Positions 35,319-39,471 of a stretch of 58,049 nt of DNA are shown here, in pieces. How positions within the stretch are numbered: the stretch's first letter is position 1; each line of letters opens with the position of its first letter. The notes below the pieces were generated by a model, which saw only the letters and a list, made by a program, of their open reading frames with translations, searched no databases and was not told the DNA's origin. This stretch comes from Chitinophaga pinensis (GTDB lineage Bacteria; Bacteroidota; Bacteroidia; AKYH767-A; OLB10): the NCBI GenBank assembly GCA_943332105.1, contig CALQOD010000005.1, positions 1 to 58,049 on the forward strand. The letters are read 5' to 3'. The translations under genes and the position numbers were made by a program.

Positions 35319-36371
35319 TTAATTAGATTCGGTTTCTAGGTATTTAACTATCAATTGAGGCATACCAAAATTATCCATCATTTGCCAAGGTACTTTTATA
35401 AGTCCATTAATATTTACTTCCAAAAGATCCTCTGTTTTTATCCACCAAAACTTTGCATATAAAATCTGGTGCGATAGAACATGTTTTAAAACGCTACTAT
35501 TTTTAACGAGCTGCGCATTCTCAATTTTCAAGTAATTACTAAGGTCAGGAATTATTAGATTCCAATCTGATTTATTCACAGTAGCAGATTCGATAAGAGG
35601 GAATTGATAAAGGCCTTCCCAAATATCTTTATCACTTCTTCTTTCTATCAAAACATTTTTTTCATCAGTAAAAATCAGAAAATCAAAATATCGGTTGCGC
35701 GTTTTAGTTTTCTTAGCTTTATAGGGAAAATTCTGAATACTTTTATTCTTTAAGGCTATACAGTAATCAGAAAAAGGGCAATTATTACAAACAGGGTTGG
35801 CAGGCTTACACTGCATAGCTCCAAACTCCATTATTGCCTGATTAAACAATCCAGGTTGATTTTTATCTAAAAGCTCATTTGCTAAAACGGCAAACTCTTT
35901 TTTACCTTTTGATGAATCAATGGCTGTATCGATTCCATACAAACGTGATAAAAAACGGTAAACATTGCCATCTACAACGGCATGATTTAAATTAAAAGCA
36001 ATTGAACCAATAGCAGCAGCAGTATAATCACCTACGCCCTTCAATGCCCTTATTTGATCATATCCTTTTGGAAAAACACCTTGATATTTATCCCTTATTG
36101 ATTGGGCTGCGGCTTGTAAATTCCTTGCTCTAGAATAATATCCGAGCCCTTGCCACAATCGAAGAACTTCCATTTCATCAGCATTTGCAAGATCTAAAAC
36201 TGAGGGAAAAGCTGCCATGAATTTATGCCAATAGGGCATACCTTGCTCGACACGAGTTTGTTGCAAAATAACTTCAGAAAGCCAAATTAAATAAGGGTCG
36301 CTGGTATGCCTCCAGGGCAAATCGCGGTGATTATGCTGGTACCAATTCATTAGAATTTGACTGAAATCCAT
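35319..36371 (-). CDS. mutY: A/G-specific adenine glycosylase MutY
   Basis: Removes adenine mispaired with 8-oxoguanine. The 350 residues contain Glu33 in SEVILQQTRV, the helix-hairpin-helix LKGVGDYTAAAIGS, catalytic Asp134 in VVDGNV, and the iron-sulphur ligands Cys188, Cys195, Cys198 and Cys204. The C-terminal half (from ~225) is the NUDIX-like domain that reads 8-oxoguanine. It is divergent from HU, and the ssb gene follows downstream on the same strand but with its own promoter. Confidence 0.96.
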   Translation of the reverse strand: MDFSQILMNWYQHNHRDLPWRHTSDPYLIWLSEVILQQTRVEQGMPYWHKFMAAFPSVLDLANADEMEVLRLWQGLGYYSRARNLQAAAQSIRDKYQGVFPKGYDQIRALKGVGDYTAAAIGSIAFNLNHAVVDGNVYRFLSRLYGIDTAIDSSKGKKEFAVLANELLDKNQPGLFNQAIMEFGAMQCKPANPVCNNCPFSDYCIALKNKSIQNFPYKAKKTKTRNRYFDFLIFTDEKNVLIERRSDKDIWEGLYQFPLIESATVNKSDWNLIIPDLSNYLKIENAQLVKNSSVLKHVLSHQILYAKFWWIKTEDLLEVNINGLIKVPWQMMDNFGMPQLIVKYLETESN

Positions 36372-36411: not shown

Positions 36412-36441
36412 TTTGTATTTGAATAAGAAAGCCTATCTTTG
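36412..36441 (+). promoter_or_regulatory. Promoter of the HU gene
   Basis: TTTG (36412-36415), 18 bases, TATCTTTG (36434-36441): both elements match the Bacteroidota consensus. The box ends 43 bases before the HU ATG, leaving a leader of about 37 bases. Confidence 0.85.
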
Positions 36442-36789: not shown

Positions 36790-37632
36790 ATGAAAGGAAA
36801 ACATTTGCAAATACTGATTGTAGGTGCAGCTTTAATTATAACCGGAGTGATTTACACAATGCCTTCACAGGTAAATGTAAAGGGAGACGATAAAGAAGGT
36901 CCTGCCAAAACAGATGCAAATGGCTTCAGTGAAATTGAAATATTAAATCAAGCGAAAGCTTTACTGGACAGTAACCAGTCGAAAAAACTAGCGTTCTTTG
37001 AGACAGCAATAAAAAATAATGGAGAAAGGGATACAGCGGTGCTGGATCAGATGGGAAGATTTTGGGATCAGGCTGGATTACCTGCAGCAGCAGCGATTTG
37101 GTTTGAAAAGAAATCGACAGTTCTTAAATCTGAACAAGGCTATCTGGAAGCTGCCTACCGTTATTTTGATGCATTTAAAATGACAGACGATTCGTTATTT
37201 AGAACATTGATGGTAAAGAAAGCAATGGACAACTATCAATTTGTTTTAGATAAAAACCCTTCTAACTTAAATGCAAAAACAGATTTAGGAGTTTGTTATG
37301 CCGAGGGATCTTCGGAGCCGATGAAAGGAATCATGTTACTTCGTGAAGTAGTTACAGCAGATCCCAACCATGAAATGGCCCAGTTCAATTTAGCCAAGTT
37401 ATCGGTTAAATCAGGTCAGCTGGATAAAGCTATTGATAGGTTAACAACGGTTTTAAAGATTAACCCGAAGCGAATCGACATTTATTATTATCTTGGGCAA
37501 GTTTATTCGTCAAAAGGAGATAATGCAAAAGCGATTGAAAGCTACAACAACTTCGTCACTAAAACCGACGACCCTAACGCTGCTGCTGAAGTAAAAAAAA
37601 TGATTAAAGAGCTTGAAAAAAGCCCTGCTTAA
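36790..37632 (+). CDS. TPR-repeat protein with N-terminal membrane anchor
   Basis: Scaffold-type protein of unknown partner. Its 280 residues begin with a membrane anchor (LQILIVGAALIITGVIYTM), so the rest lies in the periplasm or on the cytoplasmic side. At least three tetratricopeptide repeats follow, including AKTDLGVCYAEGSSEPMKGIMLLREVV (shown in part), AQFNLAKLSVKSGQLDKAI and IYYYLGQVYSSKGDNAKAI. It is placed between HU and RNase G, an arrangement often kept in Bacteroidota, but the function of this protein is not known to me. Confidence 0.87.
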   Translation: MKGKHLQILIVGAALIITGVIYTMPSQVNVKGDDKEGPAKTDANGFSEIEILNQAKALLDSNQSKKLAFFETAIKNNGERDTAVLDQMGRFWDQAGLPAAAAIWFEKKSTVLKSEQGYLEAAYRYFDAFKMTDDSLFRTLMVKKAMDNYQFVLDKNPSNLNAKTDLGVCYAEGSSEPMKGIMLLREVVTADPNHEMAQFNLAKLSVKSGQLDKAIDRLTTVLKINPKRIDIYYYLGQVYSSKGDNAKAIESYNNFVTKTDDPNAAAEVKKMIKELEKSPA

Positions 37633-37675: not shown

Positions 37676-37768
37676 ATGCCTTCAGGTAAAAAACGTAAGC
37701 GCCATAAAATGGCAACCCACAAACGTAAAAAGCGTCTTAGAAAAAATCGTCATAAAAAGAAGAAATAA
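37676..37768 (+). CDS. 30-residue AURKAIP1/COX24-domain basic protein
   Basis: A tiny, highly basic protein (20 of 30 residues are Lys, Arg or His), starting MPSGKKRKRHK and ending in RHKKKK. I recognise the pattern as the AURKAIP1/COX24 domain annotated in Bacteroidota; the mitochondrial relative AURKAIP1 is the small-subunit ribosomal protein mS38. A ribosomal role is therefore an inference from homology. It is 43 bases after the TPR gene, upstream of RNase G and in the same direction. Confidence 0.8.
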   Translation: MPSGKKRKRHKMATHKRKKRLRKNRHKKKK

Positions 37769-37801
37769 TCTGTTTAACAGGTTATTTCAACTAACAGATT
37801 G

Positions 37802-37825
37802 CTCTCTAATTTTTTTAGGGAGTTT
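37802..37825 (+). terminator. Weak possible terminator after the basic-protein gene
   Basis: CTCTCTAA, loop TTTTT, TTAGGGAG (37802-37822), an eight-base stem with one T-G pair, followed by TTT. It could stop part of the HU operon transcript before RNase G. Confidence 0.4.
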
Positions 37826-37908
37826 CTGCTTTGTATAACTATTGAATTTCATTTTAATGATGTTTGATTGTTATGCGTTTATTCTAAATTTTAACAAGCT
37901 TTTTCTGA

Positions 37909-39471
37909 TTGAACAGTGAATTAATTATTGATTCATCTTTAACCGAAGTAACAATTGCTTTAGTTGAGGAAAAACGTCTCGTAGAGCTCAACAAAGAGAA
38001 AAAAGAAAACAATTTTTCTGTTGCTGATATCTACCTGGGACGTGTTAAGAAACTAATGCCTTCTTTGAACGCTGCTTTTGTTGACATTGGCTATGAAAAA
38101 GATGCATTTCTTCATTATTTAGACCTTGGCCCTCAAGTACAATCGTTAATAAAGTTTCTTAAAAGCACCGTAAATGGTAGCCAACCGCAATCTCTTTTAA
38201 ATAATTTTGAATTAGAAGCAGATATCAATAAAGCTGGCAAAATCGGACAAATGCTATCGCCAAACATGAACATCATTGTTCAAATTGCGAAAGAACCGAT
38301 TTCAACAAAAGGTCCACGTATTTCTTCTGAAATTTCTCTTGCAGGAAGGTTTGTAGTATTGGTGCCTTTTTCGGATGTTGTTTCAATATCTCAAAAAATT
38401 AAAAGCAGCACCGAACGCCAGCGTCTAAAGCGCTTAGCAATGTCGATTAAGCCGCGCAACTTTGGGATTATTGTTAGAACTGTTGCGGAAGGAAAAAAAG
38501 TAGCTGATTTAGACGCAGATATTCAAGACCTGTGTGCTCGATGGCAATCGATGCATGAACAATTAAAAACAGTGCATGCTCCAGTAAAAATTCTGGGTGA
38601 AATGAATAGAACTTCAACTATTCTGCGCGACTTATTAAATCCGAACTTTAATAGTATTCAGGTTAACGATGCTGCTCTTGCAGAAGAAATAAAAAGTTAC
38701 ATCCGTAGCATCGCCCCCGACCAGGTAGATATTGTAAAACTTTACAAAGGCAAGGTTCCGATTTTTGAAAACTTTGGAGTAGACAAACAAATAAAAGGAC
38801 TATTTGGTAAAACAGTAACGCTTAGTGGCGGCTCTTATTTAGTAATTGAACATACTGAAGCATTGCATGTAATTGATGTGAATTCGGGTGGAAGAAATAA
38901 AGGTGCTCAAGACAATCAGGAATCAAGCGCATTGGCAGTTAACATTGCAGCAGCAAAAGAGATTGCTCGTCAGCTTCGACTTCGAGATATGGGGGGTATT
39001 GTTGTAATCGATTTTATCGATTTAAAAAATACACTTCATCGAAAAGAGTTGTTTGATACTTTACGCGATGAAATGAAACTAGATCGTGCAAGGCATACTA
39101 TTCTCCCCGCAAGCAAATTCGGATTGATTCAATTAACGCGTGAACGCGTGCGACCTGTAACAAATATCATTACAGTAGAAAAATGTCCTACTTGCGATGG
39201 CACAGGAGAAATAAAAGCTTCTATTCTACTTATTGACGATATCGAAAATAATATTCGCTACTTATGTCAAGAGCAAAATGAGAAATCACTTGCGCTACAC
39301 GTACATCCATACCTGGCAGCATATTTAAAGCAAGGTAAATATATTTTAAAATCTTATCAGTGGAAGTGGTTTAAGAAATATAAGAGGTGGATTACTATTG
39401 ACCCTATATCAGCACTTCATTTTATGGAGTTCCATTTTTATAATAATCAAGGTGAAGAGATTAAACTCTAG
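37909..39471 (+). CDS. rng: Ribonuclease G/E family endoribonuclease
   Basis: Cuts single-stranded RNA in rRNA maturation and mRNA decay. The 520 residues have the S1 RNA-binding domain near 35-120 (FSVADIYLGRVKKLMPSLNAAF, first part of the domain), the catalytic domain with HVIDVNSGGRNKG (metal-binding aspartate) and GGIVVIDFIDL (second aspartate), and the zinc-link motif KCPTCDGTG. There is no long C-terminal degradosome scaffold, so it is nearer RNase G than RNase E. The start is a TTG at 37909, the start that best fits the family N terminus. Its TAG interlocks with the TAG of the converging gene in CTAG. Confidence 0.94.
   Translation: MNSELIIDSSLTEVTIALVEEKRLVELNKEKKENNFSVADIYLGRVKKLMPSLNAAFVDIGYEKDAFLHYLDLGPQVQSLIKFLKSTVNGSQPQSLLNNFELEADINKAGKIGQMLSPNMNIIVQIAKEPISTKGPRISSEISLAGRFVVLVPFSDVVSISQKIKSSTERQRLKRLAMSIKPRNFGIIVRTVAEGKKVADLDADIQDLCARWQSMHEQLKTVHAPVKILGEMNRTSTILRDLLNPNFNSIQVNDAALAEEIKSYIRSIAPDQVDIVKLYKGKVPIFENFGVDKQIKGLFGKTVTLSGGSYLVIEHTEALHVIDVNSGGRNKGAQDNQESSALAVNIAAAKEIARQLRLRDMGGIVVIDFIDLKNTLHRKELFDTLRDEMKLDRARHTILPASKFGLIQLTRERVRPVTNIITVEKCPTCDGTGEIKASILLIDDIENNIRYLCQEQNEKSLALHVHPYLAAYLKQGKYILKSYQWKWFKKYKRWITIDPISALHFMEFHFYNNQGEEIKL

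Follow-up and report, generated by a model that had tools for sequence, protein, structure and literature searches.

The closest described relatives of the gene analysed here encode ribosomal protein bS22, an ordinary protein already known from solved ribosome structures of related bacteria. In Borrelia, bS22 occupies a pocket formed by helices h2, h27, h44 and h45 of the 16S rRNA, contacts helix H68 of the 23S rRNA, and is closer to the bS22 of Flavobacterium johnsoniae than to the mycobacterial one; its gene begins with a GUG start codon and its lysine and arginine content is 61%, as reported in PMC10618245. According to a second structural study, the F. johnsoniae protein superposes on the bS22 of C. 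acnes within the 30S subunit, with 37% identity between the two, and the contacts of bS22 with 23S helix H67 constitute an additional intersubunit bridge (PMC10085706). Yeast that has lost the mitochondrial protein mS38 is reported to show disturbances both in initiation on certain mRNAs and in the biogenesis of the mitoribosome (PMC6582356).

We analysed a stretch of 58,049 nucleotides from Chitinophaga pinensis, a member of the class Bacteroidia; this entire stretch is referred to below as the window. It contains a 30-codon open reading frame that almost certainly encodes bS22, and this identification, including a role in the 30S pocket, is the best explanation of the observations as a whole. 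The features of the locus are as follows:

35319-36371, minus strand: MutY-like gene, upstream, named from its translation only
36412..36441, plus strand: perfect match to the promoter pattern TTTG-N18-TATCTTTG, 43 bases before the HU start codon
36485..36784, plus strand: HU-family DNA-binding protein, 99 aa (PF00216, 88.6 bits against a cut-off of 22.4)
36790..37632, plus strand: TPR-repeat protein, 280 aa, between HU and bS22 (several Pfam TPR models above cut-off)
37676..37768, plus strand: bS22 gene, ATG to TAA, 30 aa, MPSGKKRKRHKMATHKRKKRLRKNRHKKKK
37769..37908, plus strand: structured spacer between bS22 and rng (folding z = -5.25 against shuffles for 37766-37915)
37801-37823, plus strand: terminator-like hairpin in the spacer (terminator-site scan)
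about 37833-37876, plus strand: longer spacer hairpin, 18 pairs (hairpin scan)
37909..39471, plus strand: RNase G (Rne/Rng family), 520 aa, TTG start (TIGR00757, 425.5 against 325.95 bits; PF10150, 316.8 bits)

The downstream gene belongs to the RNase E/G family, with TIGR00757 above its cut-off. A preliminary description of this DNA had placed the small gene between HU and RNase G; RNase G is indeed directly next to it, whereas the gene for the 280-aa TPR protein separates it from HU. The same description had called two thirds of the residues basic. With 12 lysines, 6 arginines and 3 histidines, this holds when histidine is counted (70%), whereas lysine and arginine alone make up 60%. Both the length of 30 residues and this 60% agree with the size and basicity of bS22 proteins (about 28–35 residues, about 60% lysine plus arginine). 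The computed mass is 3.8 kDa, and the computed isoelectric point of 12.0 is taken as the upper limit of the program.

The identity of the protein emerges from a search of the PDB with the window protein alone, which retrieved chain 9i5v_10, "AURKAIP1/COX24 domain-containing protein" (E 1.2e-10, 28/30 residues identical over the full length), chain 7jil_5, "30S ribosomal protein S22 | 50S ribosomal protein L38" (E 3.8e-10, 27/30 identical over the full length), and chain 8fmw_V, "30S ribosomal protein bS22" (E 1.1e-5, aligned over 28 residues). Full-length similarity to structurally identified bS22 therefore spans E-values of 1.2e-10 to 1.1e-5. A profile of 21 aligned sequences gave E-values of 2.8e-13, 2.1e-14 and 6.3e-13 for the same three chains, all of which are themselves rows of that profile. 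The earlier proposal of a small Bacteroidota ribosomal protein is supported by the ribosomal-protein names on near-identical PDB chains, and on the published side by the F. johnsoniae protein, which is described as occupying the bS22 pocket and is called analogous to mS38 (PMC10618245). The suggestion that the protein be sought in ribosomes is largely answered, for close orthologues, by existing cryo-EM structures. That the gene is easily missed by gene callers is true only in part, as the label "AURKAIP1/COX24 domain-containing protein" has been given to one PDB chain.

Across the class Bacteroidia, bS22 keeps a constant place just before rng, which is a modest new observation. A search with the window protein gave matches in 138 of 149 class genomes (E up to 0.001), and RNase G was found in 148 of the 149 (E up to 1e-20). 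In every one of the 138 genomes with a direct match, bS22 precedes rng by no more than 1 kb, with both genes on one contig and in the same orientation; these include one genome (G382) whose match has an in-frame stop and one (G406) where the linked rng, lying at the edge of its contig, is represented by its N-terminal part. From match to match the distance is 21 to 773 bases (median 139.5), and individual gaps may hold other small genes. All eight genomes that lack a direct match but retain a complete region upstream of rng carry a diverged bS22 at this position, for example MPCGRKRKLRKIKRHKLKKRRRLNRHKKKLR (loci L108–L115, in genomes G311, G332, G349, G365, G380, G395, G408 and G422), and the RNase G of these genomes is equally diverged, at 33–42% identity. 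The gap is 18–21 bases in four of them (G332, G365, G395 and G422). Three of the 149 are untestable: G358 and G387, where a fragment of rng runs to the contig end, and G401, which is 65% complete and has no rng match. The pair is present in 146/146 testable Bacteroidia genomes, i.e. 146 of the 149 sampled, and the neighbourhood of rng offers a route to bS22 genes too diverged for a direct search (8/8).

A second collection shows the same order. Among the best 80 of 259 confirmed loci, at least one of which (L140) apparently comes from the same genome as another locus (L005), rng is next in 74 of the 77 with enough downstream sequence, and HU is found upstream in 78/80, MutY in 50/80 and a relative of the TPR protein in 26/80. 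The three loci lacking rng belong to MAG records titled Bacteroidetes, Armatimonadetes and Chlorobiota. Searching open-licence papers, we found no literature on a link between bS22 and RNase G, and the main text of a study reporting that ribosomes of this class fail at Shine-Dalgarno recognition mentions neither bS22, bL38 nor RNase G (PMC9976891).

The adjacency also bears on whether bS22 is a resident of the ribosome or a factor that binds during 30S maturation, near the site of 5′ trimming by RNase G, and then leaves. Helix h2 of the 16S rRNA is situated near the 5′ end of the molecule. A transient role would suit the near-invariant pairing with rng in Bacteroidia, the inclusion of h2 in the published bS22 pocket (PMC10618245) and the role of E. 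coli RNase G in finishing the 16S 5′ end (PMC3985665). Against it, PDB chains of near-identical sequence bear ribosomal-protein names, and bS22 is built into the 70S ribosome in both the Borrelia and the C. acnes papers (PMC10618245, PMC10085706), making a departing assembly factor very improbable. For bS22 as a resident ribosomal protein, the pairing with rng could still represent a functional unit, in which docking of bS22 at h44/h45 and h2 would serve as a signal or structural precondition for the finishing of the 16S 5′ end by RNase G; we offer this tentatively and hold it to be rather unlikely. If true, only 30S particles carrying bS22 would be matured, amounting to a checkpoint. Our direct results are that the gene exists, to which family it belongs, that it is conserved and almost invariably precedes rng, and that the spacer is structured; any link between bS22 and the maturation of 16S rRNA by RNase G would, like the arrangement of transcription, be an inference. 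The bS22–rng pair provides a concrete, testable lead on how 30S maturation might be organised in Bacteroidia.

Names in this family invite confusion. The E. coli protein S22/SRA (RpsV) has the historical number 22 in common with bS22 and is presumably a different protein, so that only the names clash. A second label would move the window protein to the large subunit as bL38, since the sequence of the group formed by 7jil and 9oz9 is also called "50S ribosomal protein L38". That very sequence also bears the name "30S ribosomal protein S22", a direct match connects the window protein with Borrelia bS22, and the Borrelia paper keeps the bS22 and bL38 of F. johnsoniae apart, in different subunits, with bL38 described as having β-strands and lying beside uL6, uL14 and H95 (PMC10618245). 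Because the published bL38 is a separate 50S protein, the "50S L38" label is probably a naming slip, and we consider it very improbable that the window protein is bL38. The assignment of bS22 to the 30S subunit rests on the Borrelia and C. acnes papers (PMC10618245, PMC10085706).

Conservation of the coding sequence is pronounced. In a search of the phylum with the window protein, 288 of 296 sampled genomes gave matches (E up to 0.01). The first 29 residues are identical across 91 loci, the window locus included, some of which may be the same genome from two collections, and these are encoded by 88 DNA versions. Over these 29 codons, the mean pairwise differences at codon positions 1, 2 and 3 are 2.56, 0.09 and 12.23, respectively. 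Substitution is therefore near-wholly synonymous, which marks strong selection on the bS22 protein, and the conserved residues together with differences concentrated at third codon positions establish the reading frame as a real gene. A chance low-complexity lysine/arginine frame in AT-rich DNA, as its shortness, biased composition and lack of an NCBIfam match might suggest, is refuted by residue-by-residue conservation across the phylum with synonymous drift and by a gene order that is fixed in the class, leaving it a negligible probability. The genome from which the window derives has a single bS22 match, and the gene is also found in a genome of only ~0.5 Mb (G317). One reported bS22 match, G382:C64:87040-87126, has an in-frame TAA inside it.

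Outside the class, none of the 24 loci with inspected neighbours showed RNase G downstream of bS22, and a match to HU lies upstream in 29 of 46 loci without rng, counting L050 and L051, which are the same place. Eight of the 296 phylum genomes had no direct bS22 match, and searching these eight again with a profile yielded one match, at E 5.67. This partial match, in G227, overlaps a 323-aa open reading frame in another frame, looks like chance and was rejected. Near-complete genomes without a credible bS22 even by profile are G147, G195 and G199 (genus g97, other class) as well as G227, G274 and G286 (genus g77); three other sampled g77 genomes (G081, G151 and G250) do have the gene. Given the eight genomes without a direct match, from which the profile recovered only the match at E 5.67, parts of the phylum may be able to do without bS22. 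Separately, a record titled as an Armatimonadetes MAG (L163, JADZEY010000010.1) carries a bS22 of the Bacteroidota type and is perhaps mislabelled or mis-binned.

The spacer between bS22 and rng is unusually structured in the majority of spacers measured across the class. For this comparison we used 57 distinct spacers, obtained from 68 rng-linked loci by removing duplicates and lengths outside 40–420 bases. Their mean folding z is -3.42, with 45/57 below -2, compared with -0.87 (10/57 below -2) for control segments of equal length upstream of bS22 and -1.38 (19/57) for segments of rng coding sequence. Of the 57 spacers, 16 have a terminator-like site on the plus strand and 4 on the minus strand, against 2.75 (sd 1.97) in shuffles. 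A 3.4-kb part of the window contains 4 such sites, where shuffles contain 1.9 (sd 1.5), which makes one site alone a weak indication. In a larger set, the 126 of 142 distinct spacers that fall within the length range, a hairpin of at least 10 pairs is present in 110 (shuffled mean 86.4), and a T-tailed hairpin is present in 48 (shuffled mean 14.6, maximum 18 across 8 shuffles) and absent from 78. Some spacers have no excess structure, e.g. that of L032 (z -0.81), and none was detected in the four spacers of the diverged lineage that were long enough to fold (z -0.37 to 1.53). At gathering scores, the window gave no Rfam match.

T-tailed hairpins are similarly over-represented behind bS22 genes that rng does not follow (12/47 loci, the spurious locus L198 included, against 3.9 in shuffles), and we therefore rejected the hairpin as a control element specific to RNase G. 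An ordinary terminator fits this distribution better, and the simplest reading suggested by the data is that part of the class has a terminator or attenuator downstream of bS22. A promoter within the spacer found no support as a feature of the class: the window spacer has one match at 9 of 10 positions, at 37863, and 5/57 class spacers have such a match, against 5.0 in shuffles. A promoter scan of 3.1 kb of the window returned four rows scoring 9 or 10, against 1.0 in single-base shuffles; two of these represent a single site read in two registers, and the site at 36412..36441, before HU, is the only one scoring 10 of 10. It follows TTTG-N18-TATCTTTG, which we take to be the Bacteroidota promoter consensus, and is possibly the head of the transcription unit. 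HU, the TPR gene and bS22 could then be carried on one transcript, perhaps initiated before HU, with partial readthrough into rng. RNase G would be expressed by such readthrough or from a local start, and the hairpin after bS22 may let the ribosomal protein outnumber RNase G.

The preliminary description had called the protein AURKAIP1/COX24-type and a relative of mitochondrial mS38, a view that published structures uphold at the level of analogy and that sequence comparison does not. With the Pfam model COX24_C (PF08213), the window protein scores 12.1 bits, below the curated cut-off of 23 bits; among 21 aligned relatives, matches at E up to 10 were obtained for 10, the best with E 0.019 (15.3 bits), and none passes, whereas M. 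smegmatis bS22 scores 46.2 bits. No NCBIfam model matched the window protein. Given the score below cut-off and the lack of a match, membership in Pfam or NCBIfam families was dropped as a test of identity. The Pfam family model misses bS22, a gene carried by nearly all sampled genomes of the phylum. When the 21-row profile was compared with the PDB, mS38 appeared at E 1.8 only. At E up to 10, the mycobacterial bS22 listed actinobacterial bS22 and mS38 in the PDB and no Bacteroidota chain, and the window protein in turn matched no actinobacterial bS22. An hhalign comparison of Bacteroidota with actinobacterial bS22 aligned 5 columns at a probability of 3.1% and was non-discriminating, as the unrelated basic protein bL34, used as a control, reached 25.9% with the same actinobacterial alignment.

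By analogy with the published structures of relatives, from which both the binding site and the bridge are taken, the window bS22 is most likely a bent basic helix that would fill the 30S pocket of h2, h27, h44 and h45 of the 16S rRNA. It would most likely steady h44 at its top, next to the decoding centre, and probably also touch H67/H68 of the 23S rRNA, forming an extra intersubunit bridge. No 16S rRNA gene, and hence no set of pocket residues, was found in the assembly of this genome (96% complete, 147 contigs).

Compared with known systems, the window protein is nearest to two PDB chains that, like it, have 30 residues with the same start and end. It differs from chain 10 of 9i5v by two substitutions (S3N and R22K), and from bS22, chain 5 of 7jil, which we take to be the F. 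johnsoniae ribosome, by three (M12V, L21A and K23A). The bS22 of Borrelia burgdorferi (8fmw_V) has the MPxGxKRK...HKRKK...NRHKK pattern in common with it, but belongs to another phylum and has 28 residues in the chain. The actinobacterial bS22 proteins of M. smegmatis and C. acnes are of similar size and basicity and, according to PMC10085706, occupy the same 30S pocket as the Bacteroidota type. The mitochondrial mS38/AURKAIP1/COX24, mostly longer than the window bS22, and the cytosolic eL41 sit in the corresponding pocket by h44 and have been published as analogues (PMC10618245, PMC10085706, PMC6582356). On the strength of these structures, the window bS22 would function like mS38 and mycobacterial bS22, and common descent with mS38 is plausible.
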